37,921 nt of DNA, taken from NCBI GenBank assembly GCA_011959805.1, contig BLMC01000024.1, positions 1 through 37,921 on the forward strand, given 5' to 3'. The stretch comes from Lachnospiraceae bacterium (GTDB lineage: Bacteria; Bacillota; Clostridia; Lachnospirales; Lachnospiraceae). Shown here piece after piece: positions 1 through 20,418 of this stretch. The notes below the pieces were generated by a model. The model did not search any database. It worked only from the letters and a program-made list of their open reading frames with translations, and was not told where the DNA came from. Position numbers and translations under genes: made by a program. The first letter of the stretch is position 1, and each line of letters opens with the position of its first letter.

Positions 1-11
1 GGGGGGGGGGG
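1..11 (+). repeat. poly-G tract (at least 11 G) at the window edge
   Basis: The window opens with eleven consecutive G. The tract may extend further left. It lies within the open frame of the first gene, and matches in length the three other tracts in this locus. Confidence 0.8.
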
Positions 12-1061
12 TACTTGCGTGACTATTTGGACAGAGAGCTTTTACAATCTGTTGAGAACAAACAAAGTTGCAGTCAAGATGGATTTGAACAAAAAGTTTA
101 TGTAATCTGTGATGATAGTACCTATCGCTGGAAAACTCGTTTTGAAAAAGCAGGCAGCTCCGATATATTTATTTTTTTGTATGAGTTTTTAATGCATTAT
201 TATTATAAAATGCCATATTGGTATTTCAATTATTGCAAAATGCAGGTCAGTCAGAATATAAGCAGTGTTGCAACAGGGATTTCTTATATCAAATGTGCAT
301 TACAGGATTGCTCTATTTTAAATCTGGCGAATACCGGACAGGACTTAGAGCATGATTTTATAATGTTTGAGAAGTATATGGAGATATGTAGCCAAAGAGA
401 AATAAAAGTGGAGAATGCTATTATTGGTCTTTGCCCGTATAGTCTTAGATATTCAATGAAACAGTCACATGTGAATTGCCAAGAACTGTTGTTGTATGAG
501 CCTGTTGTTGAAGGAATACTCTTAGAAGAGGGATATCCTTATTATAGCTGGTGGTATGCATATCAAAAGAAGCTGATTGATATCTTCTTAAAGGATTTTG
601 ATATGCGAAAATGTTTTTTTGAATATTATGTTCCAATGTATGGAAAAGTTGACAATAAAGAAGCAGTATTTTGTGAACACCGTTTATCAAATGAGGAACG
701 GGCGGAATATCAAAATATACAGCATAGAATATATAATAAGCCATATGAAGCGACGATACAGAAAAATAAGGAAATTTTAAGAAAATATACGGACAGTGCA
801 TCCAACAGGGGGGTGAAAGTTATTTTCTTTCTTCCTCCTTATACCGAATTGTACAAGCGGGAATGGAACAGGGATTATTTAGAAGAACTCAAGCAATATG
901 TAATGGAATTAAGGAAAGAATATGAGATTCATGTATTGGATTTGACAGAAGATTATTTTCCTGACTGGTATTTTGAGGATGCAGGTCATTTAAATGCTGT
1001 CGGACAAAGAGCAGTCACAAAGAAAGTATTAGAGTATGTGGAAAATATACAGAGAGTATAA
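1..1061 (+). CDS. SGNH/GDSL-like hydrolase or O-acyltransferase, 5' partial, preceded by poly-G
   Basis: The gene is cut by the left edge of the window. The reading frame is open from base 3 through the run of G at 1-11 (Gly-Gly-Gly-Tyr-Leu-Arg) to the stop at 1061, so the TTG at 15 is probably not the true start. The last part reads WYFEDAGHLNAVGQRAV, which resembles the C-terminal Asp-x-x-His block of SGNH hydrolases and DltD-like proteins. A preceding strand (VKVIFFLPPY) fits the same fold. The N-terminal Gly-Asp-Ser block would lie upstream, outside the window. The protein probably adds or removes acyl groups on sugars of the surrounding glycan locus. The gene ends 26 bases before the next epimerase gene, so the two are likely cotranscribed. 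Family assignment is by motif only and moderately secure; whether the tract is in frame with the missing start cannot be judged. Confidence 0.55.
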   Translation, partial: GGGYLRDYLDRELLQSVENKQSCSQDGFEQKVYVICDDSTYRWKTRFEKAGSSDIFIFLYEFLMHYYYKMPYWYFNYCKMQVSQNISSVATGISYIKCALQDCSILNLANTGQDLEHDFIMFEKYMEICSQREIKVENAIIGLCPYSLRYSMKQSHVNCQELLLYEPVVEGILLEEGYPYYSWWYAYQKKLIDIFLKDFDMRKCFFEYYVPMYGKVDNKEAVFCEHRLSNEERAEYQNIQHRIYNKPYEATIQKNKEILRKYTDSASNRGVKVIFFLPPYTELYKREWNRDYLEELKQYVMELRKEYEIHVLDLTEDYFPDWYFEDAGHLNAVGQRAVTKKVLEYVENIQRV

Positions 1062-1087
1062 AAATAACATTTAGAAAGGGATGGCTT

Positions 1088-2038
1088 ATGAGAGTATTAG
1101 TAACAGGCGGAGCAGGTCATATAGGATCGCATATTGTGGAAAGATTGTTGGCAAAAGGAGACAAAGTGCTGGTAATAGATAATTATCAGACAGGCAGGCG
1201 CGATAATTTAAAAGAACACATGAATTTGCAGATTGTAGAGGATAGTATTGCCAACACGAATAAGATATTTGAAGTATTTGATGCATTTCAACCGGAAATT
1301 TTGGTACATGCAGCGGCTTCTTATAAAGATCCTGAAAATTGGATTGAGGATGCAACAACCAATGTAGTCGGTGCCGCAAATTTGGTAAAGGCAGCTAAAA
1401 AAGTAGGAGTGAAGAGAATTATTTATTTTCAGACAGCGCTTTGCTATGGATTAAAACCGATTGAACAGCCAATTACCTTAAAACATCCATATTTTTCTGG
1501 CGGATATGCAGGGGGCAGCAGCTATGCAATCAGCAAGACAGGTGGAGAGTTGTACATTGAATTGTCAGGAATTGAGTTTCTGTCTTTTAGACTTGCAAAT
1601 TCCTATGGACCTAGAAATTTGAGCGGTCCTCTTCCTACGTTTTATAACAGGCTTACAAATGGAAAAGAATGCTTTGTGATGGATACCAGAAGGGATTTTG
1701 TGTTTGTGGATGATGTTGTGAATGTTATTATGAAGGCGATTGATGGTATGGGAAGTTGTGGATATTATCATATTTCAAGTGGAAAGGATTATGCGATTAA
1801 GGAATTATTTGATGCGACATTGAAGGCGCTGGACATAACCTTGGAGAACCCTGTTGAAGTACGCCAGAGAGGTGAGGATGATGTCTATACAATTCTCCTT
1901 GATCCGAATAAGGTAAAAAAAGACTTTGACTGGGATGTGCAGACACCATTAGAAGAAGGGATTAAAAAAACGATTGAATGGTATCAGCAATATGGTATTA
2001 CACAGACCTATACACATTTAAAAGGAGAAATCAGATAG
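1088..2038 (+). CDS. NAD-dependent sugar epimerase/dehydratase (extended SDR)
   Basis: This 316-residue protein is an extended short-chain dehydrogenase/reductase that would act on a nucleotide sugar in the cytoplasm. The NAD-binding motif VTGGAGHIGSHI is at residues 5-16. The catalytic Tyr-x-x-x-Lys is Y146-AIS-K150, with T116 in FQTALCYG as the likely partner Ser/Thr. The length and spacing are normal for UDP-glucose 4-epimerase-like or dehydratase-like enzymes; substrate cannot be told from sequence alone. The start ATG at 1088 has a GAAAGGG ribosome site. The next gene begins with a GTG that overlaps the stop codon by one base, so the two epimerases are translationally coupled and may act in consecutive steps. 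Confidence 0.85.
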   Translation: MRVLVTGGAGHIGSHIVERLLAKGDKVLVIDNYQTGRRDNLKEHMNLQIVEDSIANTNKIFEVFDAFQPEILVHAAASYKDPENWIEDATTNVVGAANLVKAAKKVGVKRIIYFQTALCYGLKPIEQPITLKHPYFSGGYAGGSSYAISKTGGELYIELSGIEFLSFRLANSYGPRNLSGPLPTFYNRLTNGKECFVMDTRRDFVFVDDVVNVIMKAIDGMGSCGYYHISSGKDYAIKELFDATLKALDITLENPVEVRQRGEDDVYTILLDPNKVKKDFDWDVQTPLEEGIKKTIEWYQQYGITQTYTHLKGEIR

Positions 2039-3111
2039 TGACAAAAGAGGATTACAGTTTATTTGAAAATAAATGTGTTTTAGCAGTTGGCGGAGCTGGA
2101 TTTGTCGGAAGCAATTTAGTTAGGCTTTTATTAAATAATGTGCAGGAAATCAGTATTATAATTGTGGACAATCTATTATCCGCGGAGATTGTAAACGTAC
2201 CTAAAGACAAACGCATTACATTTATTGAGCGTTCTATTACAGATTTTCGCGTTCTTGCAAATTTATCGAATAATATAGATTATGTTTTTCATTTGGCTAC
2301 TTTTCATGGCAATCAAAGTTCTATCTTTGATCCGATTGCGGATAATGAAAACAATACACAGACAACATTAAAATTGTTTGAACGTTTGAAGGATTTTCAC
2401 AACCTTAAAAAAGTGGTGTATTCCTCAGCAGGGTGTTCTGTGGCTAAAAAAACATTTGGGGAAGCAATTGCAACAACAGAAGAAAGTCCTATTGAACTTC
2501 ATCAGGATAGTCCTTATTCCATCTCAAAAATAATCGGAGAATTTTATTCCGTGTATTATCATAAACAATATGCTCTTCCTGTTGTCAGAGCCAGATTTCA
2601 AAATGTATATGGTCCGGGAGAAATTTTGGGAGCTGGTAATTGGAGAGGCACTTATGCAACAATTTGGAGAAACGTGACACCGACTTTTATTTACAGGGCA
2701 TTAACGAATCAGGAGATTTTGTTGGAAAATGAAGGAATTGCCACAAGAGATTTTATTTTTGTGGAAGACATTTGCCGCGGTCTTATGCTGTGTGCTTTGA
2801 AAGGAAATGAGGGAGACGTGTATAATATCGGTTCTGGAGTTGAAACTTCTATTTCAGATTTGGCACAAAAAATTATACAAATTGCAGATAGTAAGTCGAA
2901 ATTGAAAATAATTCCTAAAAGGGCATGGGATACATCAGGTAAGCGGTTTGCTTCGGTAGTAAAGTCAAAAGAAATACTAGGATTTACAGCTGAGGTTGCG
3001 TTACAGGAAGGGCTAGAAAAGACTGTCGCATGGACAAGGCAAAATCAGACTATAATACAAAGATGTATAGAAAAGCATGAAAGGCACTTGGCATACTACC
3101 AAAATAAATAG
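2038..3111 (+). CDS. NAD-dependent sugar epimerase/dehydratase, second copy type
   Basis: A second extended SDR enzyme, 357 residues from the GTG at 2038. That start is chosen because it overlaps the upstream TAG (TAGTG) and has AAAGGAG about nine bases ahead; the longer open frame from 1978 would run into the upstream gene. The Rossmann motif GGAGFVGS lies at residues 18-25, and the catalytic Tyr-x-x-x-Lys is in SPYSISK, about Y160 and K164. FHLATFHGNQ is the usual strand-4 region. It is clearly different in sequence from the gene before it, so this is not a tandem duplication. Likely role: epimerisation or dehydration of an NDP-sugar feeding the glycan cluster. Exact product unknown. Confidence 0.83.
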   Translation: MTKEDYSLFENKCVLAVGGAGFVGSNLVRLLLNNVQEISIIIVDNLLSAEIVNVPKDKRITFIERSITDFRVLANLSNNIDYVFHLATFHGNQSSIFDPIADNENNTQTTLKLFERLKDFHNLKKVVYSSAGCSVAKKTFGEAIATTEESPIELHQDSPYSISKIIGEFYSVYYHKQYALPVVRARFQNVYGPGEILGAGNWRGTYATIWRNVTPTFIYRALTNQEILLENEGIATRDFIFVEDICRGLMLCALKGNEGDVYNIGSGVETSISDLAQKIIQIADSKSKLKIIPKRAWDTSGKRFASVVKSKEILGFTAEVALQEGLEKTVAWTRQNQTIIQRCIEKHERHLAYYQNK

Positions 3112-3128
3112 TTATAAGGATATATACT

Positions 3129-5066
3129 ATGTGTTCAATAGCGGGAATGTTAAATATTAAAAAGGATAAAATACAGGATATTTCATATAAATTAAATGTC
3201 ATGAACGATATGCAGAAACATAGAGGACCAGATGACACAGGTATTTGGGCAAATTCGCAGGAATATATTGGTTTGGCACATAATCGCCTAAGTATTTTTG
3301 ATTTGACAGATTGCGGACATCAACCTATGAAGGATAACGAAACGGGGAACATAGTATGCTTTAATGGAGAAATATATAATTACATAGAGCTTAGGAAAGA
3401 AATTGGATGTGTATTTAGGACAAACACAGATACAGAAGTGATTTTAAAGGCTTATGAGAAATGGGGGACAGATTGTGTAAAGCATTTTAAGGGAATGTTT
3501 TCCTTTGCTATTTGGGATGAGAGAAAACAAACCTTATTTTGTGCAAGGGACAGATTTGGTATTAAGCCGTTTTACTATGCAATTGTTGACAATGTTTTTT
3601 ATTTTGCCTCCGAAATGAAGGCGCTTCTTCCTTTCCTTCAAGATATTGAAACAGATGTGGAAGGCTTCAAGGATTATTTGACCTTTCAGTTTTGTTTGGG
3701 AAATCACACACTGTTTGAGGGAATTAAAACGCTGGAGCCGGCACATGATATCGTAATACAGGAAAATAAGATTCATTTCCAAAGATATTGGCAAGTGTTT
3801 TATGATTTGGACTGGAATCATACAGAAAAGTATTTTATTGAGAGACTCGATGAACTTTTGCATAATTCAATTCGTTATCACATTAGAAGTGATGTACCTA
3901 TTGGAGGATATGTGAGCGGAGGCGTGGATTCTTCTGTTATCTCTGCGATGGCAGCAGAGATGGTAGGCGGGGAGAATTACGCAGGATTTACAGGAAAATT
4001 CAGTATTAGCAGACTCTATGATGAGAGCATGTATGCGGAAGATATAGCAAAAGAACATAATTTTTCGTTATATCAGATTGACATGACTTGTGCGGATTTT
4101 TTGAACAATATTGAAAAGGTTATCTATCATTTGGACATGCCTGTTGCAGGACCTGGTTCTTTTTGTCAGTATATGGTTTCGGGACTGGCAGCAAAGCATA
4201 GAAAAGTGGTACTTGGTGGTCAAGGAGGGGACGAGATCTTTGGAGGGTACACAAGATACCTGGTAGCTTACTTTGAACAATGTATTAAAGGTGCAATAGA
4301 AGGAACAACGGACAATCAAAAATATATCGTGACATATGAATCGATTATTCCTAATTTGATAGCACTTAGAAATTATAAACCAATGATAAAAGATTTTTGG
4401 AGTTCTGGATTGTTTGAAGAAAGTGATAAGCGATATTTTAAATTGATTAACCGAGCACCGATGCTTTATGATTGTATTCACCAAGAAATGCTAAGTGATT
4501 ATGATCCATACCAGACATTTCATGATATTTTTTATGCCGAAAACCTAAAAAATATTTGCTACTTCGATAATATGACACATTTTGATTTTAAGACATTATT
4601 GCCAGCTTTGCTGCATGTAGAAGACAGGATGAGTATGGCTCATGGACTTGAATCAAGAGTGCCGCTTTTGGATGACGAGCTTATAGAGTTTGTAGCAACA
4701 ATTCCAGCAAACTTTAAATTAAAAGCCGGAGATATGAAGCATATTTTTAAGAAATCAATGAACAAATATTTGCCGGATAGTATACAAAAACGCACAGATA
4801 AGATGGGGTTCCCGATTCCATTTAACCGATGGATTAAGAATGAGGCGAAAGATTTTATACATGATATCCTTGGTTCAAAGAAGGCACTTAACAGACAGCT
4901 TATTGATAATAATAAGGTCATTTGGAAAATGGAAACGGAAAGCGATTTTGGAAGAAGTATCTGGGGAGTGCTTTGTATGGAGTTGTGGCAGAGGGCATTC
5001 CATGACAAGAAAGCAGAATACAAAAGAAAGCTAAGGAACTGTTCAGAAAGTTATTGTCATGAATAA
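3129..5066 (+). CDS. asnB: asparagine synthase (glutamine-hydrolysing)-type amidotransferase
   Basis: A 645-residue class II glutamine amidotransferase. The catalytic Cys2 is exposed after removal of Met (MCSIAGM), followed by the HRGPDDTG block (31-38), the FNGEIYNY block (78-85) and DRFGIKPFYY. The synthetase half carries the PP-loop SGGVDSS (263-269) and LGGQGGDEIFGGY, both needed to form the acyl-adenylate. All residues needed for the standard reaction seem present. In polysaccharide clusters such AsnB paralogues often amidate a uronic acid or similar carboxylate rather than make free asparagine; that is family knowledge and only an inference here. It sits 18 bases after the epimerase and is probably in the same operon. 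Confidence 0.85.
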   Translation: MCSIAGMLNIKKDKIQDISYKLNVMNDMQKHRGPDDTGIWANSQEYIGLAHNRLSIFDLTDCGHQPMKDNETGNIVCFNGEIYNYIELRKEIGCVFRTNTDTEVILKAYEKWGTDCVKHFKGMFSFAIWDERKQTLFCARDRFGIKPFYYAIVDNVFYFASEMKALLPFLQDIETDVEGFKDYLTFQFCLGNHTLFEGIKTLEPAHDIVIQENKIHFQRYWQVFYDLDWNHTEKYFIERLDELLHNSIRYHIRSDVPIGGYVSGGVDSSVISAMAAEMVGGENYAGFTGKFSISRLYDESMYAEDIAKEHNFSLYQIDMTCADFLNNIEKVIYHLDMPVAGPGSFCQYMVSGLAAKHRKVVLGGQGGDEIFGGYTRYLVAYFEQCIKGAIEGTTDNQKYIVTYESIIPNLIALRNYKPMIKDFWSSGLFEESDKRYFKLINRAPMLYDCIHQEMLSDYDPYQTFHDIFYAENLKNICYFDNMTHFDFKTLLPALLHVEDRMSMAHGLESRVPLLDDELIEFVATIPANFKLKAGDMKHIFKKSMNKYLPDSIQKRTDKMGFPIPFNRWIKNEAKDFIHDILGSKKALNRQLIDNNKVIWKMETESDFGRSIWGVLCMELWQRAFHDKKAEYKRKLRNCSESYCHE

Positions 5067-5111
5067 TTTATTCAGTTCCTTGACAAGTAGAAACGAAGAG
5101 GGGGAGAATTT

Positions 5112-5828
5112 ATGCATATATTTAATGCAACAGATGTTGAAAATTACATGAAGCAGGATTGGATCATGCAGCTTCTGAAAAGCTGCGCAGAGAAAAGCTG
5201 TGTAGAGAAGAATGTGATTACAGTGGCAACAAACGAATGGTTGATGACAGATGTGAATAAACGTATGATATATGCGGAAATGTATGGGGATTTTCTGATC
5301 GAAAAGCAGAATAAAAAGGTACTAGATGCGGGGGGGGGGGTATCACTCTTAACAAATGTGCTAGCAGAAAACACAGAATATACGCTTGTGGATCTGCTTG
5401 CTCACGGGGGTAAGGAATATCTAAAACAGCACAAGAATCTGCATGTTAAGTTAAAAGCTTTGGACTGGTATCTGTTGGAAATGGACGAAGACTATGATGT
5501 CATTCTCGCAAATGATATTTTTCCAAATGTAGATCAAAGAATGGAACTTTTTATAGAGAAAATGTTACCACATTGTAGAGAATTAAGAATGAGTGTTACT
5601 TATTATAATACGCTGCGTTTTTATGTTACACGGAGATTGGATGCTGAAGAAATATTGACAATGCTTTGTTATGACGGCGATATGGTATCATCAAAGCTCA
5701 AAAAATATTTATCCGAAATGATTGATACCAAAGAAAAAGATCTGGTGGATATGAAAACAGACAAATCAAGTATTTACGAGAATGGAAGACAAGTTGCCTA
5801 TATCAGAATGCGTGGCGGGATACAATGA
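5112..5828 (+). CDS. SAM-dependent (sugar O-)methyltransferase with in-frame poly-G tract
   Basis: A 238-residue class I SAM methyltransferase. Motif I is KVLDAGGGVSLL (residues 69-80), followed by the acidic strand-2 end YTLVDLL and YDVILANDIF, the usual strand-4 motif. The three glycines of motif I are encoded by an 11-G tract at 5330-5340, and with 11 G the frame is intact. One base more or less would truncate the protein soon after residue 76. The neighbouring sugar enzymes suggest a sugar O-methyltransferase, though the acceptor cannot be read from sequence. The gene has a GAGGGGGAG ribosome site and is followed 38 bases later by an SGNH gene with its own G tract. Confidence 0.75.
   Translation: MHIFNATDVENYMKQDWIMQLLKSCAEKSCVEKNVITVATNEWLMTDVNKRMIYAEMYGDFLIEKQNKKVLDAGGGVSLLTNVLAENTEYTLVDLLAHGGKEYLKQHKNLHVKLKALDWYLLEMDEDYDVILANDIFPNVDQRMELFIEKMLPHCRELRMSVTYYNTLRFYVTRRLDAEEILTMLCYDGDMVSSKLKKYLSEMIDTKEKDLVDMKTDKSSIYENGRQVAYIRMRGGIQ
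5330..5340 (+). repeat. poly-G tract (11 G) in methyltransferase gene, in-frame state
   Basis: Eleven consecutive G within the codons of SAM motif I. At this length the 238-residue frame is continuous. Such tracts are classic slipped-strand mispairing sites. Confidence 0.9.
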
Positions 5829-5866
5829 CAAATTTCGTGCTAACAATTTATGAAATGGAGATTGCG

Positions 5867-6504
5867 ATGAATATATATTTTTTTGGAGATTCTATTAGCT
5901 TTGGGCAAGGGATATCTGTGGATTTAACATGGGTGAATCAGATAGCGCAGCAGTTACGTCGGGCATACAGGGGGGGGGGGTAATTATGGTCGTGAATACT
6001 TCCATCAACGGAAATACGACGAGAATGGCGTTGGAAAGAATGCCTTATGATGTGCAGAGCCATGAAGTGGATGTTTTGGTGATAGGATTTGGGATGAATG
6101 ACTGTAATTACTGGGTAACCGATAAAGGGATGCCAAGAGTGTCACCCAATGCGTTTAAAGCGAATCTGGAGGAAATTATAGAACGTGCATTTCGTTTTGG
6201 AGCTAAGCAGGTAGTTCTTAGAACTAATCATCCATCGCCCAAAACGGATTATATGACTCATACAACCATTACGTATGGGGAGAGCAATCACTTTTATAAT
6301 GAAATTATAAGGGAGGTTGCAAAAAGCAATCCAAGAGTCATATTTGTGGATATGGAGCAGGAATTTAATAGATACATAGCAGAGCATTCTGTCCCATTAG
6401 AGGAATTAACCCTGTCTGACGGAGTTCATTTAAGCTTGCTGGGGCATAAAGTGTACTTTGACTGTATGTATCCTGTCATTTCAAAAATAGCAGAGGAATA
6501 TTAA
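5867..6504 (+). CDS. SGNH/GDSL hydrolase-like protein, frameshifted at a poly-G tract (phase-off)
   Basis: Translation from the ATG at 5867 gives MNIYFFGDSISFGQGI, the SGNH block I with catalytic Ser, and runs to RRAYRGGG where it meets TAA right after the 11-G tract (5970-5980). The continuation lies in another frame: VVNTSINGNTTRMALERM, then VIGFGMNDCNYW (block III, GxND) and, near the end, LSDGVHLSLLGHKVY (block V, Asp-x-x-His). Adding one G or removing two joins the parts into a protein of about 212 residues with all four SGNH blocks. It is therefore either a phase-variable gene in the off state or a homopolymer sequencing error. Likely role: O-acetyl esterase or acyltransferase on the glycan. 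A 23-bp direct repeat begins at its stop codon. Confidence 0.8.
5970..5980 (+). repeat. poly-G tract (11 G) in SGNH gene, out-of-frame state
   Basis: Eleven G followed by TAATTATGG. With 11 G, the upstream frame ends at the adjacent TAA. With 12 or 9 G, upstream and downstream SGNH blocks are joined. Confidence 0.9.
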
Positions 6505-6526
6505 GAAGCCAATAGGCGAGCGGTGC
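6504..6526 (+). repeat. 23-bp direct repeat, copy 1
   Basis: A perfect 23-bp match to 6910-6932. This copy starts at the last base of the SGNH stop codon and is non-coding. The second copy encodes residues 9-16 (QKPIGERC) of the formyltransferase. The 406 bp between the copy starts contains the promoter and leader of the formyltransferase gene. Confidence 0.85.
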
Positions 6527-6884
6527 ATGGCGATAATGCTTTTTTTGAGAGACAGATAATGAATAAAAGAACCTTGACAATTTTATACTTTATATCATGA
6601 AAAACAGGACATATGTTTGAAAAACTTGACAAATACGAACATATACATTGTACTATAAAGTAATAGTTATTTTATTGAATTTGGGAAGGAAAAATATATT
6701 TTTGTAAAAATGCAGCGGATTATTATGAAAAAATTGAGTTAGAACGTGTTTTCTTTTCGAGTTGACTATTATTGAATCATATTATATTAAATTAATCCTG
6801 ATGTAAAGTATGAAATTGTCTGACAGACAATGGAAGTAGTATACCTCAGGTTTTTTGTGCGGGAAGCGCAGGAGGAATATTTAG
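6527..6884 (+). promoter_or_regulatory. gene-free promoter/leader region ahead of the formyltransferase
   Basis: No credible gene is seen here. TTGACA at 6574 and again at 6626 are candidate -35 boxes; for the second, TACTAT lies at 6651 with a 19-base spacer, a weak match. Neither promoter is certain. The distal part holds a terminator-like hairpin (listed separately) followed by GGAGGAAT and the start codon at 6885. The CTTGACAATTT core and the later GTGTAAAG/ATGTAAAG-TATGAAATTG block recur upstream of the LpxD-like gene, so the two regions look like paralogous regulatory modules. Confidence 0.5.
6797..6856 (+). terminator. terminator-like leader hairpin (possible attenuator)
   Basis: CCTGA (6797-6801) can pair with TCAGG (6846-6850), followed directly by TTTTTT. 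Inside lies the perfect palindrome ATTGTCTGACAGACAAT. It stands between candidate promoters and the start codon of the formyltransferase gene, where an attenuator or a processive-antitermination target would be expected. A similar block precedes the LpxD-like gene. Confidence 0.5.
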
Positions 6885-7661
6885 ATGTTACATATAATGT
6901 TTATGGGTCAGAAGCCAATAGGCGAGCGGTGCTTTAAACAACTGTTGAAACGCCAAAATAATCATTACCAAATTGCAGCGGCTGTCTCAAATATAGATAA
7001 GACAAAGAAATGGTGGAATGGGAATAAAATATATGAGCAGTGCATGAGCGAAGATATTATTTTTATAGATAATACAAAGAAAAATGAAGAGAGAATCAGG
7101 GAAGTAATTATCAAAGAAAATATCAATTTTATTGTTTCAGTAGGGCACGGATGGATATTGAGCGATAAAATACTTCAATTAGTAAATTATCATGCTGTGA
7201 ACCTGCATCTAGCAAAGCTGCCAGAATATCAGGGAAATTTTACTTACAATCATGCTATTTTAAATGGGGAAAAGGAATATGGAGTTACGCTTCATTGGAT
7301 GACGGAAACGGTCGATTTGGGAGACTGTATTTTCACAAAAACATTTCCTGTCGGCGATGATGATACGGCATATTCATTGTATACAAGGTCTGTTGATGAA
7401 GGAGCGGCATTGTTTGGACAGTTTCTTGATTTTATTAGTGATGGAAGGAGACTACCAAGGAAACCAATGATAGGGAAGCAGCGTTTTTACAGCAGAGATT
7501 CTTTGAAGGGATTAAGGGAAATAAGGCATAGTGATAAACCAGAGCACGTTGTACAAAAAAGCAGGGCATTTTATTTCCCGCCTTTTGAGAATGCATATTT
7601 TGTGATTCAGGGAAAAAAGTATTTTGTATATCCAGAAGATACAGGCAATGGAGCAAAATAA
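6885..7661 (+). CDS. Fmt-like formyltransferase (probable sugar N-formyltransferase)
   Basis: A 258-residue protein of the N10-formyltetrahydrofolate-dependent transferase fold. The catalytic triad expected for this family is present as N106 and H108 in VNLHLAKLPEYQG and D144 in TETVDLGDC; these are the same numbers as in the E. coli methionyl-tRNA formyltransferase. The protein lacks the full C-terminal tRNA-binding domain length (Fmt is usually about 310 residues), which favours a sugar amine as acceptor. Known relatives N-formylate dTDP- or UDP-4-amino sugars. It is the first gene after the 6505-6884 leader and sits 17 bases before a glycosyltransferase gene. Function as sugar N-formyltransferase is inference from context. 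Confidence 0.78.
   Translation: MLHIMFMGQKPIGERCFKQLLKRQNNHYQIAAAVSNIDKTKKWWNGNKIYEQCMSEDIIFIDNTKKNEERIREVIIKENINFIVSVGHGWILSDKILQLVNYHAVNLHLAKLPEYQGNFTYNHAILNGEKEYGVTLHWMTETVDLGDCIFTKTFPVGDDDTAYSLYTRSVDEGAALFGQFLDFISDGRRLPRKPMIGKQRFYSRDSLKGLREIRHSDKPEHVVQKSRAFYFPPFENAYFVIQGKKYFVYPEDTGNGAK
6910..6932 (+). repeat. 23-bp direct repeat, copy 2 (inside formyltransferase gene)
   Basis: Perfect copy of 6504-6526, here coding for residues 9-16 of the formyltransferase. Confidence 0.85.
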
Positions 7662-7678
7662 CAAAAGGAGGCAGAAAA

Positions 7679-8903
7679 ATGCGGGTATTAGTGTTATGGA
7701 GGCAGCCTGTGATCAATATGAGAAATACAATCATTGACCATGCATTCAGCTTTCAAAAATATGATGTAAAGAATGAATATTTTTATTTCAATATCTATAA
7801 TGGAAGATTTGCCGAAGATTATAGTTGGATTGATGACAAAATGTTTGATATTGTAATCTTTCATTACTCTGCAGTTTCATTGAGAGGTTCTAACAGATAT
7901 TGGGATAATTTCTTACATTTAATGATATCTATATGGAGCGATTATCCCTGCAAAAAAATTATCATACCGCAGGATGACTATACGGTTACAAAACGAATTT
8001 GGGATTTAGCTTTGGGGATAAAAGCAGATGTGATATATACTGTAATACGGGAATGTGATTGCGCTGTTTTATATCCTAAAGAGAAACTGGGGAATATTGA
8101 AATCAAAACCGTTTTAACAGGATATGTGGAAGAGGATTATGTCAATAAGATTCATCTGCAAAGTCATAGATATAGAAAATACGATGTTGTTTACAGGGCA
8201 AGGAAACTGCCCTATGAATTTGGAAGGCTTGGTCAATTGAAATATGAACTGGCGTTGTATTTTAATAAGAAATTAAAAGATACCGATTTGATATATAATT
8301 TGGCAAATACGGATGACGATCAAGGCGCGCTGTTAGGAGATGGCTGGTTTACATTTCTTGCTTCTTCAAGAACGACAATTGGGTGTCTGGGAGGAGCAGG
8401 ATTTGCGGATATAACAGGAGACTATGAGAAAAAAGTAAGGGAATACACATTGATTTATCCAAATGCTACATATGAGGAAACGAAAGAAGCGTGTTTCCCC
8501 AATGTTGAAGAAAATCTTACAGGAATGGTTTCACCTAGAATTTTTGATGCGGCACTGATGAAAACCTGTCAGATACTGGTGGGGGAAGATTATGACTTGT
8601 TACGGGGGGGGGGGTATGCGTCCTGACGTTGACTACATTGTCCTGAATGCGGATTTTAGCAATATTGATGACGTGATAAAGAAAATGAAGGATATTGATT
8701 ACTGTGAGGAAATTGCAAGCAACTGTTATGAACATCTTGTGAAGTCTGAGAAATATACATATGCAAAGTTTGTGGAATGGATCATAAAGGATATTGGGAG
8801 TACTGCTTATGACAAAAACCGCTGTGGCGATTTAAGCAGATATATAGAGAAAATGTGCAAAAAAAATAATGAGTTAGTAATGAATGAAATAAAATCGCGA
8901 TAG
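7679..8903 (+). CDS. glycosyltransferase-like protein, frameshifted at a poly-G tract (phase-off)
   Basis: The frame from the ATG at 7679 (good AAAGGAGG site) runs 315 residues and stops at 8626, a few codons after an 11-G tract. The frame that continues (RPDVDYIVLNADFSNIDDVIKKMKDIDYCEE and onward to 8903) matches the C-terminus of the intact paralogue next door. With 10 G the two parts join to a 407-residue protein, against 405 for the paralogue, so this is the on state (13 G also works). VSPRIFDAALMKTCQILVGEDYD resembles the C-terminal nucleotide-sugar binding part of CgeB/GT1-like glycosyltransferases. The enzyme class is moderately sure; donor and acceptor are unknown. Confidence 0.72.
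8604..8614 (+). repeat. poly-G tract (11 G) in glycosyltransferase gene, out-of-frame state
   Basis: Eleven G at the site where the neighbouring paralogue has the non-repetitive codons for YQGVLIPEIDY. With 10 or 13 G the reading frame is restored. Confidence 0.9.
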
Positions 8904-8937: not shown

Positions 8938-10155
8938 ATGAGGGTATTGGTGTTATGGAGACAGTCTATGATCAATATGAGAAATACAGATATTGATCAT
9001 GCGTTTTGCTTCAAACGATATGATACAGAAAATGAATACTTTTATTTTAATATATATAAGGGACGATTTGCAGAGGATTATGCATGGATAGATAAGAAAA
9101 TGTTTGATGTTGTTATTTTTCATTATTCTGCTATGGAGTTGAGAGGTGCAGAGAAACATTGGGAAAATTTTGTGCGGCTTATGACAACTATTTGGAGAGA
9201 GTATCCTTGCAGGAAGATTATTATGGTGCAGGATGACTATACACGTACCAAAAGCATTTGGGATTTGGCATTAGGAATAAGAGCAGATAAATTATATACG
9301 GTGATGCGGGAATGTGATTATCCTATTTTGTATCCCAAAGATAAAATGAACTCTATTGAAATAAAAACGGTTTTGACAGGATATGTTGAGGAAGGTTACA
9401 TCAATAAGTTATCTCTGCGAAATCATAGACAAAGAAAATATGATGTTGTTTACAGAGCAAATAAACTTCCATATGTATATGGAAAACATGGTCAACTAAA
9501 ATATGAGCTGGCGCTATATTTTAAAGAATGTTTGAAAGATATTGGATTTATATATGATATATCTGGCACCGATGGCAATAAGGGAGCGGTGCTAGGAGAT
9601 ACATGGATTGAATTCTTAGCTTCGTCAAGAATAGCTATTGGATGCTTGGGTGGTTCTGGATTTGCAGATATAACAGGGGAATATAGAAAAAGAATAACAG
9701 AATATATGACAGAGCATACGGATGCAACATATGAGGAAACAAAAGCTGTATGTTTTCCTCATGTAGAAGAAAATCTCACAGGTGTGATTTCTCCTAGAAT
9801 TTTTGATGCTGCAATCACAAAGACTTGCCAAATACTGGTAGGAGCGGATTATCAGGGAGTTTTAATTCCTGAAATTGATTATATTGTTTTACGTCCTGAT
9901 TTTGGCAATATTAATGAAGTGATAAAGAAAATGAAAGATATTGACTATTGTGAAGAAATTGCCAATAACTGTTATGAGCACGTTGTAAAATCTCAGAAAT
10001 ATTCATATGCAAAATTTGTAACGTGGATAAAGAATGATATTGGGAATATTGATCATGTAAAAAGTCCTTCTAGCGAGTTAAGTAAATATATAGAAAGAAT
10101 GTGTCAAAAAAATAATGATATGGTGATGAATGATATTTTATTAAGGGAAAGGTAA
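8938..10155 (+). CDS. glycosyltransferase-like protein, intact paralogue of the preceding gene
   Basis: This 405-residue protein is similar along its whole length to the gene before it, starting with almost the same residues (MRVLVLWRQSMINMRNTDIDHAF). The pair arose by tandem duplication and has since diverged. The C-terminal part (ISPRIFDAAITKTCQILVGADYQG) resembles the donor-binding half of GT1/CgeB-like glycosyltransferases. Unlike its neighbour it has no G tract, so its expression should be constant. GGAGGATAG precedes the ATG. The two copies may add the same sugar to different sites or different sugars; the sequence cannot tell. Confidence 0.65.
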   Translation: MRVLVLWRQSMINMRNTDIDHAFCFKRYDTENEYFYFNIYKGRFAEDYAWIDKKMFDVVIFHYSAMELRGAEKHWENFVRLMTTIWREYPCRKIIMVQDDYTRTKSIWDLALGIRADKLYTVMRECDYPILYPKDKMNSIEIKTVLTGYVEEGYINKLSLRNHRQRKYDVVYRANKLPYVYGKHGQLKYELALYFKECLKDIGFIYDISGTDGNKGAVLGDTWIEFLASSRIAIGCLGGSGFADITGEYRKRITEYMTEHTDATYEETKAVCFPHVEENLTGVISPRIFDAAITKTCQILVGADYQGVLIPEIDYIVLRPDFGNINEVIKKMKDIDYCEEIANNCYEHVVKSQKYSYAKFVTWIKNDIGNIDHVKSPSSELSKYIERMCQKNNDMVMNDILLRER

Positions 10156-10171: not shown

Positions 10172-11542
10172 ATGAAAAACAAATTGATTTTATTTGGAGC
10201 AGGTGCTTATGGCAGAAGGGCGTTTGGCAATCTGAAAGCGGAGCATGAGATTGTATGTTTTGTGGATAATAATCCTTCCTTTTGGGGCACAACACTGTTT
10301 GATGTTCCAATTGTTTCCGTAGACCAGATACCCAAATACCAACAGAATGGGGCAGACATTGTAATCTGTATTGCGGAATATCATCAAGTGAGAGAGCAGC
10401 TAAAAGAAATAGGAATAGCTGATTACTATGTTATGCTTGAAGGTCATTTATATAAAGGAAATGAGCAGAATTTGATGGCGGGCAGGGTGTGTACAAGGTG
10501 CATTATGAATAGTGAATCTGATAAATGGATTCTTTTTGACGAGAAGGGACAGTGTAATTATTGCAATACTGCATTTGAGAATATAGGAAAAACATATTTT
10601 CCCAATGATGAGGGAAAGAAGAAATTGGATTTACTGTTAAGTGAAGTAAAAGAAAGCGGAAAAGGGAAAAAGTATGATTGTATTATGGGACTTTCCGGAG
10701 GGCTTGATTCGTCATACTTGGCATATCTTGGCTATAAATGGGGGTTGCGGGTTCTTGCAGTCCATATAGATGATGGATTTGATACGGAAATATCCAAGTC
10801 AAATTTACAGAAGCTGATTGCAGCGACAGGATTTGATTATGAGGTGATTGAGCCTGATGTAGTGCAGTTTAATGACCTGACACTTGCATATATGCGGGCT
10901 GGGGTTCCTAATATTGCCATTCCGCAAGACAATGTTTTGTTAGCATTCTTATATAAAAAGATGAAAGAATATAATATTCAATACTTTCTTTCTGGTGGTA
11001 ATTTTGCGCTTGAGTGTATATTGCAGAGGGGGAATACATACCATGCATTTGATGTAACCAATATTATTGATATACATAATAAATTTGGAAAAGAACCAAT
11101 TGATAAGTTGGAGCTATTGTCAAATAAACAGATGAAAGAAGATCAAAAGGTTTTTGGGATAGAATCCCCTAGACCATTAAATTATATTGATTATAATAGG
11201 GAAAAGGCATTTAGGGAATTGAGTGAATTTTGCGGTTTTGAATATTATGGACGCAAACATCTTGAAAATATTTTAACAGCATTTGTTCAGTTATATTGGT
11301 TTCCGAAAAAATTTGGCGTTGATAAAAGAACTTCTCATTTATCGAGTATGATTGTAAGTGGTCAAATGACACGTAAGGAAGCTCTCAAAAAAATGAAGGA
11401 ACCTATATACGACAGGAAAATGATGGAGAGCTATATAGCAATTCTCAAGAAAAATTTAAGAATAACAGACAAAGAATTTGATGAAATAATGTCCGCACCT
11501 GGACATCAACACGAAGAGTATGCAGTAGATAGCAGCTATTGA
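10172..11542 (+). CDS. N-acetyl sugar amidotransferase (PseA/WbpG type) with N-terminal Rossmann-like module
   Basis: A 456-residue two-part protein. Residues 1 to about 95 form a nucleotide-binding-like module (LILFGAGAYGRRAF, CFVDNNPSFWGT). From about 105 it is a PP-loop ATP pyrophosphatase: VCTRCIMN (C107, C110) and CNYC (C128, C131) form a likely zinc site, and SGGLDSS at 175-181 binds ATP. Members of this family (WbpG, PseA, LegG-like) install an acetamidino group on 2,3-diamino sugars or nonulosonic acids using ammonia from a HisFH-type partner. No such partner lies in this window. The extra N-terminal module is not part of the standard family and is shared with four downstream enzymes. 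Confidence 0.82.
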   Translation: MKNKLILFGAGAYGRRAFGNLKAEHEIVCFVDNNPSFWGTTLFDVPIVSVDQIPKYQQNGADIVICIAEYHQVREQLKEIGIADYYVMLEGHLYKGNEQNLMAGRVCTRCIMNSESDKWILFDEKGQCNYCNTAFENIGKTYFPNDEGKKKLDLLLSEVKESGKGKKYDCIMGLSGGLDSSYLAYLGYKWGLRVLAVHIDDGFDTEISKSNLQKLIAATGFDYEVIEPDVVQFNDLTLAYMRAGVPNIAIPQDNVLLAFLYKKMKEYNIQYFLSGGNFALECILQRGNTYHAFDVTNIIDIHNKFGKEPIDKLELLSNKQMKEDQKVFGIESPRPLNYIDYNREKAFRELSEFCGFEYYGRKHLENILTAFVQLYWFPKKFGVDKRTSHLSSMIVSGQMTRKEALKKMKEPIYDRKMMESYIAILKKNLRITDKEFDEIMSAPGHQHEEYAVDSSY

Positions 11543-14645: not shown

Positions 14646-14904
14646 ATTGTGGGTAAGAAAGTATAAATATTTATCAGATTCTCGCAGAAATTGGAAAGAG
14701 GACGTGTTGGATATTATAAAAAAAGATCAATACAGTCGGCTGCACATATTGATACACCCGTTTTGGTACAATGAACGCGAAATACCAGCAAAGGAAGTTT
14801 TGCGCTCTTTTTGTAAAAAGCAAGTATACCAATGTTACAAAGAATTAGATAGAAATATGCGTGATTTAAGCGAATTGCTTCAGAAACGAGAGCTGTTTGT
14901 TTAG
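14620..14904 (+). pseudogene. remnant of a polysaccharide deacetylase-like gene (C-terminal part)
   Basis: An open frame of 94 codons whose first codons lie in the leader hairpin. SDSRRNWKEDVLDIIKK and LHILIHPFWYNE resemble the C-terminal section of polysaccharide deacetylase-like proteins of surface glycan loci, where a Ser-Asp-Ser-x-x-x-Trp segment is followed by the His-Pro-x-Trp motif. The N-terminal catalytic domain with the metal-binding Asp and His is missing, so this should not be an active deacetylase. The fragment appears to have been fused to the leader by deletion or recombination. It might still be translated, since the frame is open. Family assignment is by motif and moderately sure. 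Confidence 0.5.
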
Positions 14905-14914
14905 GAGAAAATGG

Positions 14915-15829
14915 ATGAAGAAGATAAGTGCAGAAGCGTTATTTGAATATTTAAGAACAAGAGATACGAGCATAGAGATTCATGGGAATAAGAATAGAGA
15001 TATTCTTGGTTTTTCTTCTTTGAATAATTATAAGACAGGAACGATCACTTGGATAAAAAAGCAGGTTGGTGCGAATGTATGCCATTTGAAATTGACGGCG
15101 GTGGTATGCCCTCCTGATGCCCAAACAGAGGCAGAGGTTAGGTTTGTGACGGATAATCCGAAAGATGTATTTTTTACGGCAGTAGAATATTTGGCTGATC
15201 CAATAAGTGCATCAAAAATAGCTCCGACTGCAGTATTTGGCAAGAGTGTGCAAATAGGAGAAAACGTTTCCATTGGAGATTATTGTTGTATTGGAGATAA
15301 TGTGCAGATTGGTGACGGGACAATTATAGAGGCACATGTTGTTATTCATAAGAATGTGAAGATAGGGAAAGGGTGTTTGGTAAAGTCAGGAGCAATTATT
15401 GGCGGGGCGGGATATGGATATTCCAAAAGAGACCATAGGTATCATAAAATACGTCATTATGGCAGTGTCGTTATTGGTGATAATGTAGATATAGGAAGTA
15501 ATACATGTATTGATTGTGGAACGATAGATGATACAGTTATTGGAAATGGCGTTAAAATAGATAATTTGTGTCATATTGCCCATAATGTGACCATAGGAAA
15601 TAATTCATCTATTGTGGCAAATAGTACTATTTGTGGCAGTGTTGTTATTGGATGTGAAGTGTATATAGCCCCTAATTCTGTCATAATGAATCAAATAAAA
15701 GTAGAAGATGGGGCAATGATTGGGATGGGAGCAGTGGTAACGAAAAATATAGAAGAGAGTACAGTTAATGTCGGTTTTCCAGCCAAAACAATTCGTATTC
15801 GAACAAAAGAGGATTGGCGTAATTACTGA
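14915..15829 (+). CDS. LpxD-like hexapeptide-repeat N-acyltransferase
   Basis: A 304-residue protein from the ATG at 14915, chosen because AGGAG lies seven bases ahead; an in-frame TTG at 14897 is less likely. Residues 1 to about 90 resemble the N-terminal UDP-sugar binding domain of LpxD (IEIHGNKNRDILGFSSL). From about 100 on there is a left-handed beta helix of hexapeptide repeats (VFGKSVQIGENVSIGDYCCIGD and following), with GGAGYGYSKRD and VKIDNLCHIAHNVTIG, the latter with the His expected to be catalytic. Lipid A is not expected in this kind of organism. In such clusters LpxD homologues probably acylate an amino sugar such as a UDP-4-amino sugar. Substrate is inferred. Confidence 0.8.
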   Translation: MKKISAEALFEYLRTRDTSIEIHGNKNRDILGFSSLNNYKTGTITWIKKQVGANVCHLKLTAVVCPPDAQTEAEVRFVTDNPKDVFFTAVEYLADPISASKIAPTAVFGKSVQIGENVSIGDYCCIGDNVQIGDGTIIEAHVVIHKNVKIGKGCLVKSGAIIGGAGYGYSKRDHRYHKIRHYGSVVIGDNVDIGSNTCIDCGTIDDTVIGNGVKIDNLCHIAHNVTIGNNSSIVANSTICGSVVIGCEVYIAPNSVIMNQIKVEDGAMIGMGAVVTKNIEESTVNVGFPAKTIRIRTKEDWRNY

Positions 15830-15839
15830 TGTTTTTAGA

Positions 15840-15965
15840 ATGATTCGTTTTATAAATAGGAAGGAAGAAAGGTATTCTTTGACAAGTTTATTAAAGTATT
15901 TGATAAAATACAATGCAGAAAATAATATTAGCCATATATCAAAAAATGTGTTTGCTTTAAAATAG
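15840..15965 (+). pseudogene. remnant of a methyltransferase-like gene (C-terminal tail)
   Basis: A 41-codon open frame starting at ATG 15840. Its product (RKEERYSLTSLLKYLIKY and NAENNISHI) aligns with the last 40 residues of the 396-residue methyltransferase-like protein at 17299-18489 (IKEERYFLASLLEHLMKY, YAENDISHI). DNA similarity continues to just past the stop codon. It is best read as the end of a deleted paralogue that once stood here, or the end left by a recombination. Confidence 0.7.
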
Positions 15966-16002
15966 GAATCTTTATATTAGGCTTTTTGGAGGAAAACTAT
16001 AC

Positions 16003-17082
16003 ATGAAAATAGTATCAGTTGTAGGCGCGAGGCCTCAGTTTATAAAGGCAGCAGCAGTATCACGAGTGATTAGAAAATATGTAACAGAAATATTGGTTCA
16101 TACTGGACAGCATTATGATAGTAGTATGTCCAATATATTTTTTGAACAATTGGATATTCCAAAGCCTAACTATAATTTGGGAGTGGGATCAGGCTCTCAT
16201 GCAAAACAAACAGCAGAAATGTTGGTCAAATTAGAGGAAATTTTTTTAAAAGAAGAACCCAATTATGTGCTAGTATACGGGGATACAAATTCTACATTGG
16301 CAGCAGCGTTGGCGGCATCTAAAATATTAGTTCCAGTCATTCATGTGGAAGCAGGTTTACGGTCTTTTAATATGGCGATGCCAGAGGAACAAAACCGAAT
16401 ATTGACAGATCATATTTCAGAATATTTATTTTGCCCGACACAGACTGCGGTAAAGAATTTGGAGAAAGAAAATATTACAAGTAATGTTTATTGTATTGGA
16501 GATGTGATGTGTGATGCAGTGCACTTCTACCTAGAAAAGATAAGAGAAATTTCAAAAAGTATCTTTATGGCAAAACTTCAGTTGTTGTTTCAGTGGGACA
16601 AGCAATTGCAAAATTGGTATATTGCTACAGTGCATAGAGCCGAAAATACAGAAAATGAAATGGCATTGTGTGAAATCCTTAAAGCTTTTGAGAAATTAGA
16701 GTATCCTGTTATTTTTCCAGTGCATCCAAGGATTAGGAAATTTATTGACCAACTTATGGATAAAAATCATTATCAAAATATATGTTTTGTTGAGCCATTG
16801 GGATATTTAGAGATGCTTTACTTTACGGACAATGCAGTGAAGGTGATAACTGATTCAGGAGGTTTGCAGAAAGAAGCATATATTATGCATAAGAATGTTG
16901 TTACGTTGAGAAACCAAACAGAATGGGTAGAGACACTTGAAGGCAACCATAATATATTATGTACGATTGATAGCAAAAGTATTCTTGAAGCTGTTCAAAG
17001 AACAGATATTAAAGATCACTTTGATGATTGCTTATATGGCAATGGGAATGCAGTAGGGAAAATGTGTAGAATATTGTTTTGA
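16003..17082 (+). CDS. wecB: UDP-N-acetylglucosamine 2-epimerase, non-hydrolysing (WecB-like)
   Basis: A 359-residue enzyme of the WecB/MnaA/NeuC superfamily. Motifs along the chain are GARPQFIKA (residues 8-16), VYGDTNSTLAAALAA, HVEAGLRSFNMAMPEEQNR, VHRAENTE, PVHPR and ITDSGGLQKEA, all standard positions in the two Rossmann domains around the UDP-sugar. WecB-like members convert UDP-GlcNAc to UDP-ManNAc; the hydrolysing NeuC branch releases ManNAc or analogues for sialic/legionaminic acid synthesis. The choice between the branches needs a tree. The GGAGGAAAAC ribosome site precedes the ATG. A palindromic MITE-like element lies 36 bases after the gene. Confidence 0.85.
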   Translation: MKIVSVVGARPQFIKAAAVSRVIRKYVTEILVHTGQHYDSSMSNIFFEQLDIPKPNYNLGVGSGSHAKQTAEMLVKLEEIFLKEEPNYVLVYGDTNSTLAAALAASKILVPVIHVEAGLRSFNMAMPEEQNRILTDHISEYLFCPTQTAVKNLEKENITSNVYCIGDVMCDAVHFYLEKIREISKSIFMAKLQLLFQWDKQLQNWYIATVHRAENTENEMALCEILKAFEKLEYPVIFPVHPRIRKFIDQLMDKNHYQNICFVEPLGYLEMLYFTDNAVKVITDSGGLQKEAYIMHKNVVTLRNQTEWVETLEGNHNILCTIDSKSILEAVQRTDIKDHFDDCLYGNGNAVGKMCRILF

Positions 17083-17117
17083 TTCTATATTTTATAACAG
17101 CAGGATAAAAATCAGGG

Positions 17118-17270
17118 AAAACCTATAACAGTTCAGTCTAGGACTTTGCACTACGCTGCAAAGTCCGTAGGAATATGTAGTGGTTGAGATGCATCAAGCC
17201 ACCACGAAGTGGTTTTGCATGGCTTGATGTTCGTAACAGGAAACCGAAGGCTGAACTGATACGAAAACCT
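17118..17270. mobile_element. MITE-like palindromic element with 7-bp flanking direct repeats, copy 1
   Basis: The 139-bp core (17125-17263) starts ATAACAGTTCAG and ends CTGAACTGATACG. It is flanked on both sides by AAAACCT (17118-17124 and 17264-17270), as expected for a target-site duplication. Inside are two strong hairpins: GGACTTTGCA/TGCAAAGTCC (17141-17166) and CATCAAGCC/GGCTTGATG (17192-17229), the second with an inner ACCAC-gaa-GTGGT. CGTAACAGG stands before the right end. A second copy with the same plan but different stem sequences lies at 36218-36368. No protein is encoded, so mobilisation in trans would be required. Confidence 0.7.
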
Positions 17271-17298
17271 TAATTTTTTCTAAGGGAGATGTAGACAA

Positions 17299-18489
17299 AT
17301 GGAAAACTGTTTGGTCTGGGGAGTTGGCAAAATAGGCAGTAGCAGTGTATTAAAGGATATTTTATCACAAAAGTATCATGTTAGAGCATATTGTGACAGT
17401 AGTATGAATGGTGGAGAAATAATCAATGGTTTAAAAGTAATAGGTATTGATGAGATAGATAGATTTATAAAAGATGAGCAAATTACTGTTATTTTAATTG
17501 CGGCGCTGAACAAAGATATCATAAAAAGCATTAGAGAAAGTATTGTAGAAAAAATTACAGCGAATATCAGGATTTTGGAATTATATGATTCAGAATTGGA
17601 TAGTATGGAAAATTTGTATTTGTCAAATGTACATAAAGCAATGAAATTCCAGTGGGATGTCAATTTTGCAAACCAGTCCAAAGTATGGGTAGCAAATTTA
17701 ATAAGCGAGATAGAATACTGGACGGATGCATACTGTAAGACGCAAGGTACATTTCTCACTCCTTATATTGAAAATACGAATTTTACGACGTATTATCCTG
17801 AGTACAAAGAATTTGCAGCTCAGTTAAAAGAGAATGCGCTTATTTTAGATATTGGAGGAGGAATTGTCTCAAAATTGGGATGCAATACAGACCAAGGGTG
17901 CCTACTTCAAATTAGAACAATCGATCCCTTAGCATACTGGTATAATCAGTTTTTACCGATGGATATTTCAGAGAGTAAGAAGTGTCAGTTTGGATTATTT
18001 GAATTTATTGCAGACTTTTATCACAAAGAAAGTGTGGATGGTATTGTGATTAATAATGCGTTGGACCATTGCATAGACCCTTTTAAGAGTATTTTGGAAT
18101 GCTTGTACATATTGAAGACGAATAGTCAAATGGGGTTGTTGCATAGAAGGGCTGAGGCAGTTTATGAGAAATATTCTGGTCTGCATAGATGGAATATTGA
18201 CTATAATACGAAAGACCACTTTATAATTTGGAATCAACATCATGCAATCAATGTTACAGAAGCATTGCGTGAGATTGCAGAGATTAACTTGACACATTCG
18301 GAAGAATCCCTTCCAAGAGAAAAACAGATAATTAAAATTGAAATTAAAAAAAAGAATAATTTTGAATTGGAGCAATTTGTAGATATCAAGGAAGAAAGAT
18401 ATTTTCTGGCAAGTCTGTTAGAACATTTAATGAAATATTATGCAGAAAATGATATTAGTCATATATATCAAAAAATGCATTCACTTTAA
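17299..18489 (+). CDS. methyltransferase-like protein with N-terminal Rossmann-like module
   Basis: A 396-residue protein. Residues 1 to about 95 are a diverged copy of the shared module (CLVWGVGKIGSSSVL, AYCDSSMNGGEIINGLKVIGIDEI). From about 130 on it resembles a class I methyltransferase: ALILDIGGGIVSKLG is motif I, TIDPLAYWY follows strand 2, and VDGIVINNALDHCIDPFKSI is the strand-4 to helix region (HxxDP-like). The C-terminal tail of about 40 residues is also found in a remnant at 15840-15965. The protein probably methylates a sugar of the glycan, but the substrate is not known and the N-terminal module may have a separate role. It is the first gene after the palindromic element. Confidence 0.65.
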   Translation: MENCLVWGVGKIGSSSVLKDILSQKYHVRAYCDSSMNGGEIINGLKVIGIDEIDRFIKDEQITVILIAALNKDIIKSIRESIVEKITANIRILELYDSELDSMENLYLSNVHKAMKFQWDVNFANQSKVWVANLISEIEYWTDAYCKTQGTFLTPYIENTNFTTYYPEYKEFAAQLKENALILDIGGGIVSKLGCNTDQGCLLQIRTIDPLAYWYNQFLPMDISESKKCQFGLFEFIADFYHKESVDGIVINNALDHCIDPFKSILECLYILKTNSQMGLLHRRAEAVYEKYSGLHRWNIDYNTKDHFIIWNQHHAINVTEALREIAEINLTHSEESLPREKQIIKIEIKKKNNFELEQFVDIKEERYFLASLLEHLMKYYAENDISHIYQKMHSL

Positions 18490-18506
18490 AATAGTGGAGA
18501 AAAGAA

Positions 18507-19658: not shown

Positions 19659-19673
19659 CGGGAGATAAAACTT

Positions 19674-20357: not shown

Positions 20358-20418
20358 ACGAGATTAGAACAAAAAGTTATGGTGAGTTGCGATTCAATAG
20401 TTTCGTTGGAGGATAGGT

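Follow-up and report, generated by a model that had tools for sequence, protein, structure and literature searches.

Do the long guanine runs that lie within genes of a surface-glycan locus act as switches of those genes? The locus considered here belongs to a Lachnospiraceae bacterium and stands on a stretch of 37,921 nt (hereafter the window), which is the whole of contig C24 (BLMC01000024.1) of the draft assembly GCA_011959805.1; it carries four runs of exactly 11 G. An earlier note, made from the letters of the window alone, read these runs as multi-gene phase variation of surface-glycan genes, following a Campylobacter-like logic in a Gram-positive host. That central claim is well supported by comparison, through two orthologous differences in length and frame, an overlap between contig ends and many further tracts in the genus. 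We put the probability that these are poly-G contingency switches inside surface-glycan genes, found genus-wide in a Gram-positive lineage, at about 0.83.

Four G tracts in one glycan locus

The four G11 runs are genuine and far exceed what chance would give. A scan of G runs finds them on the forward strand at exactly 1-11, 5330-5340, 5970-5980 and 8604-8614, followed by TAC, TAT, TAA and TAT, respectively; this confirms both the positions given in the earlier note and its statement that the longest other G run is 7 (36582-36588). The longest C run is 6. Among 300 first-order Markov windows built from the window sequence, the mean number of runs of at least 9 G was 0.07 per window, and a longest run of 11 was reached in one. 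Comparison of open frames across each tract likewise agrees with what had been described: the frame runs on through tract 2 and breaks at tracts 3 and 4, and tract 1, at the contig edge, is not decidable from the window alone. The figure of up to 16 glycan forms that had been attached to the four tracts is plain arithmetic.

By its gene content, the surrounding region is a surface polysaccharide or glycan locus (all genes named in the window are on the forward strand). Tract 1 is followed by an open frame of 349 aa (12..1061), the 3' part of a putative SGNH/GDSL-DltD-like gene (Lipase_GDSL_2 E 2e-4 and DltD E 3e-4, neither reaching the Pfam cut-off) whose 5' part is probably on contig C35. The tract-2 gene (5112..5828; 238 aa) appears methyltransferase-like: the tract encodes the glycine loop of a VLDAGGG motif, judged by eye, and there is a weak match at E 0.05, the profile search having returned no Pfam or NCBIfam match for this protein. 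Tract 3 breaks the frame of a predicted GDSL/SGNH esterase (5867..6504; PF13472, E 5e-18), with one frame upstream from the ATG at 5867 and a downstream open frame at 5929-6504. Tract 4 breaks the frame of a gene at 7679..8903 (frames 7679-8626 and 8592-8903), and directly downstream stands an intact, tract-free paralogue that is 70% identical (8938..10155). Of the labels first given to these genes, that of esterase holds for tract 3 and reaches tract 1 only through matches under the cut-off, that of methyltransferase is carried for tract 2 by motif and weak match, and that of glycosyltransferase for tract 4 is unsupported, the family having no match in Pfam (tract pieces) or in Pfam and NCBIfam (paralogue). 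Predicted structures of the tract-2 protein and the tract-4 paralogue were unusable (mean predicted local distance difference test scores, pLDDT, of 38 and 39).

Homopolymers beyond chance length inside open frames are what is expected of an intragenic poly-G contingency locus, and they are what the window holds. Another mark of such loci, a place among surface-structure genes, appears here from family and neighbourhood, the assignment being weak or lacking for tracts 2 and 4.

Length and frame across the genome and its relatives

The draft genome (4.25 Mb, 431 contigs, 86.5% complete) holds 15 runs of at least 9 G, distributed as four on C24, three on C28, two on C35 and one each on C2, C7, C17, C63, C77 and C101; 12 of the 15 are followed by TA. 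Their lengths range from 9 to 12, so that the equal length of the window's tracts, which the earlier note had found curious, is a feature of contig C24 only and not of the genome.

Two tracts of this genome, both outside the window's four, differ in length from their orthologues in related genomes, with a change of frame. The C2 tract, in a methyltransferase gene, is a frame-shifted G10, and the orthologous place in genome G002 has an in-frame G9. The C77 tract, in a membrane-protein gene of which the contig has only 13 codons upstream of the tract, is also a frame-shifted G10, and its orthologue in the sister genome G060 is a G9 in frame.

Tract 1 was probably recorded at two lengths as well. 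Contig C35 ends in a G12 (C35:30913-30924) plus 13 bases, 12 of which are identical to those after tract 1 in the window. C35 would then precede C24, with the glycan locus probably continuing from one to the other, and, if the C35 end is the missing 5' side, neither recorded length, 12 on C35 or 11 on C24, puts the tract-1 gene in frame. The glycan genes of C35 encode a DegT aminotransferase, an oxidoreductase, a hexapeptide acyltransferase and a glycosyltransferase; the second tract of that contig is a G10 whose gene, in frame, encodes a methyltransferase domain.

Tracts also crowd at contig ends. Six of the 15 lie within 400 bases of one, where a share of 8% is expected (p 0.0008, or 0.004 with C35 and C24 counted once; the 400-base limit was chosen after the distances were seen). 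Assemblies interrupted by variable tract length, or by poor reading of poly-G, should show such crowding.

A genus-wide set of tracts followed by TA

Pattern counts covered 38 genomes of the genus, and frames were analysed in loci of seven. Over the 38 genomes, 206 matches to G9-TA compare with 14 to the reversed pattern; G9-TA is present in 27 of them, and without the four richest genomes the counts are 109 and 5. In the genus tract listing, TA follows 100 of 150 tracts. The loci of the seven genomes contain 105 distinct tracts, of which 89 are TA tracts, a share biased by the picking of most of these loci from the TA listing. At least 40 codons are open on both sides of 65 TA tracts, and the two sides are in frame in 38 and shifted in 27. 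The 85 tract gene pieces scanned include methyltransferases (10), sulfatases (4), leucine-rich repeat (LRR) surface proteins (4), GDSL proteins (3) and hexapeptide acyltransferases (3).

The TA could be envisioned as a general property of G runs, an idea that is rejected by its frequency: 8 to 14% after G3 to G5 and 85 and 92% after G9 and G10, in loci picked around tracts, with no such jump for A runs. A constraint at the protein level was rejected as well, given that the T of TA is found in all codon phases (25/26/22 for 73 tracts; 10/8/11 among tracts of modal spacing with long downstream frames). Since T takes every phase and the clearly longer open frame is on the G strand in 85 of the 89 TA tracts, the flank rule operates on DNA or RNA rather than on protein. 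This preference of long G runs for a following TA, whatever the codon phase, is a new finding for the genus; the listings searched in an open-access library showed no report of such a flank rule, nor of poly-G phase variation in Lachnospiraceae.

A fixed register around the tract

The least expected finding is that the flank often has a fixed register. When tracts are anchored on TA, C stands at -11 in 31 of 36 G10 and 21 of 44 G9 tracts, and T at -13 in 25 and 21, respectively. The consensus is TRC-N-G9-TA(T), in which N=G yields a G10; none of the positions beyond -16 and +4 exceeds 0.25 bits. The full TRC is at the modal spacing in 38 of 85 tracts. By species, C at -11 is seen in 8/8 tracts of G010, the least broken of the seven genomes (20 contigs), in 17/28, 8/11, 7/13, 5/9 and 3/7 of others, and in 4/11 of the bacterium studied here. 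As far as tested, the register appears to be a trait of this genus: four other Lachnospiraceae-type genomes gave 2/17, 1/6, 0/5 and 0/5, and it was not seen in 80 typed rows from other genera (C at -11 in 15/80).

Spacing and frame go together. For the 48 tracts with both TRC and long frames, 21 of 27 without deviation are in frame, 7 of 10 with a deviation of +1 are shifted by one, and 3 of 5 with +2 are shifted by two. In all, 33 of 48 agree with the register rule, a number that none of 20,000 shuffles reached, on the same tracts in which the rule was found; the gain from the register is modest in number because 28 of 48 are already in frame without it. In the window, tract 3 (+2) and tract 4 (+1) fit.

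As causes of the register, a slippage-favouring context, a hairpin and a recognised site can all be envisioned. The TRC and GTA ends are nearly complementary, and a test for dyad symmetry by covariation gave no support, complementary pairs across the tract occurring about as often as column composition predicts. Tentatively, and with more doubt than confidence, TRC-N-G9-TA might be regarded as a cassette dedicated to hypermutation, of which the tracts are copies and whose near-complementary ends would set length and mutability, either via a small hairpin formed at replication or via recognition by an enzyme.

How the tracts would act

The observed tracts, gene contexts, frames, flank rule and register, together with the two orthologous length differences and their matching frame changes, can be arranged in a simple scheme. 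Each tract sits inside a gene of a surface-glycan locus, and gain or loss of G in replication, presumably by slippage and presumably reversible, would move the downstream part of that gene in or out of frame. Expression would go on and off with it, and cells would carry differing sets of decorating enzymes (the esterase, the methyltransferase-like protein, the unassigned tract-4 enzyme and the product of one or more further tract genes on C35) and so variable glycans. The tract, often in a fixed TRC-N-G9-TA(T) context and in any codon phase, has at its modal TRC-to-TA spacing the length that keeps most genes in frame; extra Gs are mostly accompanied by a frame shift, and the flank itself may play a role in mutability.

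TA-flanked tracts in other lineages

A single, universal TA rule was considered and rejected: outside the genus some sites serve as promoter spacers, and few fit the TRC register. For orientation, DnaE identity is 72% for bacterium 1xD42-87, 68% for Hungatella sp., 67% and 61% for two metagenome-assembled genomes (MAGs) labelled Lachnospiraceae, and 49% for one labelled Clostridia, values that point to Lachnospiraceae for the bacterium studied here. Of the G9-TA sites retrieved from other families of the order, most are not enclosed by long frames (long on both sides in 1 of 29), and 6 of 29 such loci have a -35-like box with TAnnnT. In one of these families, two loci (L432 of G045 and L433 of G300) share an apparently orthologous promoter-like arrangement, TTGCTT...G-tract-TATGAT, one tract being G11 and the second G9. 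In an uncultured Bacilli MAG (G351; Lapin-012 bin34), near-identical promoter-like sites (L480-L487) place G10 to G17 between a TTGCCA-like box and TATAAT. At each of the 10 sites viewed in this MAG, TATAAT comes immediately after a tract of G10 to G17, an open frame starts at most 100 bases away at 9 of the 10, and a -35-like box is present at 7 of 8 distinct sites; this looks like a promoter-level phase-variation family. The MAG has 29 G9-TA sites and no reversed one.

A G10 tract of bacterium 1xD42-87 (L459; G343) lies within the inverted repeat TTTTCTA...TAGAAAA, and in the same genome the left flank is rich in TTTTTC at several further tracts, a context unlike that of the window's genus. 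Viral contigs (L229 to L417) show G10TATA in at least 120 stretches and the reversed pattern in 73, and phages may carry such tracts too.

Escape from mismatch repair as the cause of the TA flank is not supported, since the presence of MutS1 does not track the TA excess. Among Bacilli MAGs, TA is strict without a MutS1 match in G349 and G351 and with MutS1 in G353, and there is no excess with MutS1 in G350 and G352; four Helicobacter genomes with no full-length MutS1 have TA to reversed counts of 29:17, 22:11, 15:4 and 14:30. This test is rough, because the genomes were found through holding G10TATA and may be incomplete, and because the TA of G351 belongs to a -10 box.

Weighing the explanations

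An artefact of assembly or sequencing, by which the tracts are real and their lengths and frame breaks were miscalled in draft data, is unlikely. The 6 of 15 tracts near contig ends and the base by which the C35/C24 overlap differs after the tract would suit it, as would the failure of Illumina reads at poly-G reported in the portions of a Bifidobacterium breve study drawn on here (PMC9187656); against it stand tracts with kilobases on both sides in G010, a genome with contigs over 1 Mb, and the fact that several species share the flank rule and the register. That spacing deviation tracks frame shift also speaks against miscalls, but alone leaves room for those of a fixed in-frame length. Less probable again is a reading of TRC-N-G9-TA as a conserved protein-binding site, or a structural site in RNA or DNA, that lies in genes without switching them, the off-frame copies being pseudogenes. 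Constant spacing, the fit of all eight G010 TA tracts and the nearly complementary ends, though with no covariation beyond column composition, would agree with such a site; it accounts poorly for the shifted frame of 27 of 65 genes, for gene classes that are the usual phase-variable ones, and for an orthologous site at which two species differ by a single base and, in step with it, in frame.

The two remaining candidates are both very improbable. Programmed ribosomal or transcriptional frameshifting could exploit a slippery homopolymer and would make sense of the 27 shifted genes, yet 21 of 27 genes with modal spacing need no frameshift and TA occupies all three codon phases; neither a conserved slippery codon phase nor obligatory two-frame coding was found. 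Phase variation through a promoter spacer, with the TA after the tract starting a -10 box, holds true in other lineages, as in the G351 sites and the 6 of 29 other-family loci, and within the genus a -35-like box stands at promoter spacing at 13 of 86 tracts, compared with 4 at control spacing. Such a box together with TAnnnT occurs in only 4 of 86, whereas long frames flank 65 of 86 and the G strand has the clearly longer frame in 85 of 89; the window's tracts lie inside genes and not between -35 and -10 boxes upstream of one.

The contingency-switch reading has points against it too. The evidence consists of assembled sequences, and draft assembly with errors in the sequencing of poly-G could produce apparent differences in length, that between C35 and C24 among them; doubt about that join is left by the one mismatched base after the tract, and by the retrieved loci, among which no homologue was found to cover the tract-1 gene on both sides of the tract. 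The orthologue comparison covered retrieved loci, most of them picked around tracts, and yielded two differing pairs and one paralogous pair, within G035 (L061/L066), of equal tract lengths. Genes were equated with the longest open frame, perhaps wrongly for some of the 65, and some tract genes may simply be decaying. MutS1, over the cut-off in 34 of the 38 genus genomes, should lower slippage rates. The register rule is broken by 4 of 6 tracts with a deviation of -1 (still in frame), by 3 of 10 with +1 and by 6 of 27 with none, and tract 2 of the window, in frame despite a spacing of +1, is a misfit.

Lastly, the G060 locus, which is syntenic with that of the window at 73 to 83% nucleotide identity, has no tract at the tract-2 site (GGAGGTGGTATT), no G run at the tract-3 site, and no tract at the orthologous place in its relative of the tract-4 gene; its homologue of the tract-2 protein, 66% identical, has GGG at the same place without a tract. 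The earlier note had pointed to tract lengths across related genomes; here C2 and C77 differ with a change of frame, and G060 lacks tracts where tracts 2 and 3 would be. The GDSL gene of G060 carries a G9 tract elsewhere, near the C-terminus; this different place, and the lack of tracts at the other two sites, suggest a turnover of tract positions, the GDSL gene having acquired its tract separately in each lineage.

Other genes of the locus and its surroundings

Between tracts 1 and 2 lie two genes for NAD-dependent sugar epimerases/dehydratases (1088..2038, PF01370 E 5e-38; 1978..3111, PF01370 E 1e-40, the latter given from its first ATG, so that the true start may be later) and one for an asparagine-synthase-like amidotransferase (3129..5066; PF00733, E 8e-81). 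A formyltransferase (6885..7661; profile matches) is, from its context, likely of a sugar-modifying type. A 22-base direct repeat at 6505-6526 and 6911-6932, 406 bases apart, has its second copy in the 5' part of this gene, which suggests a partial duplication before it. Beyond the tract-4 paralogue come an N-acetyl sugar amidotransferase of the WbuX subfamily (10172..11542; TIGR03573, 242.5 bits against a cut-off of 203.2) and two glycosyltransferase-like genes (11576-12988 and 12992-14413; PF13439 E 1e-7 and 2e-6, just over the cut-off). The rest of the locus (14897..21126) encodes a hexapeptide acyltransferase, a WecB-type UDP-GlcNAc 2-epimerase, a DXD glycosyltransferase, a pentose-phosphate epimerase-like protein and an IspD/TarI-like cytidylyltransferase.

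Directly after the glycan locus stand JetA, JetB and JetC of a Wadjet type I system (21410-26790; PADLOC E 8e-211, 5e-108 and 0). JetD is absent directly downstream, where the next gene encodes an MgsA-type AAA ATPase; JetD was not searched elsewhere. C35 has, ahead of its glycan genes (L031 7248-9880), genes for a tyrosine integrase and a TnpB-like protein (Cas12f1-like TNB domain, E 7e-12), which hint at mobility of the locus.

Known systems and what the tracts would mean

Poly-G tracts as a means of localised hypermutation are familiar chiefly from pathogens that are Gram-negative, several of them without full mismatch repair. In the porA/opc type of Neisseria, phase variation works through a poly-G promoter spacer; the tracts described here resemble it in that TA follows the G tract at once, and differ in that those of the window are intragenic and few of the genus have promoter boxes. 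The portions of the Campylobacter phasome study consulted (PhasomeIt, PMC6321876) describe poly-G tracts inside many surface-modification genes per genome, switched ON or OFF by frame and differing in length between homologues. On that account the likeness is close, with intragenic tracts of similar length in surface genes and the same switching logic; the differences are a Gram-positive host with MutS1, the TA after the tracts and the often fixed TRC-N-G9-TA register, the flank comparison having been run on four Helicobacter genomes. For the pili of Bifidobacterium breve UCC2003, a Gram-positive gut commensal, the parts of the report used here (PMC9187656) give intragenic G10/G11 tracts and measured mixtures of G11 and G12 populations. 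Tracts of similar length in a Gram-positive host are common to both, the mixtures having been measured in B. breve and the present case being made from sequence; unlike the two pilus clusters, for which no flank motif was seen in those parts, a glycan locus and a genus-wide tract set are concerned here.

A genus of Lachnospiraceae-like bacteria with many surface-glycan tracts would make glycan variation at the level of the cell testable in gut Firmicutes, and such variation would matter for recognition by phages and antibodies. The fixed flank register leads to a specific hypothesis on tract mutability when MutS is present; if the cassette reading should prove true, a bacterium that keeps MutS could nonetheless mutate chosen surface genes locally.

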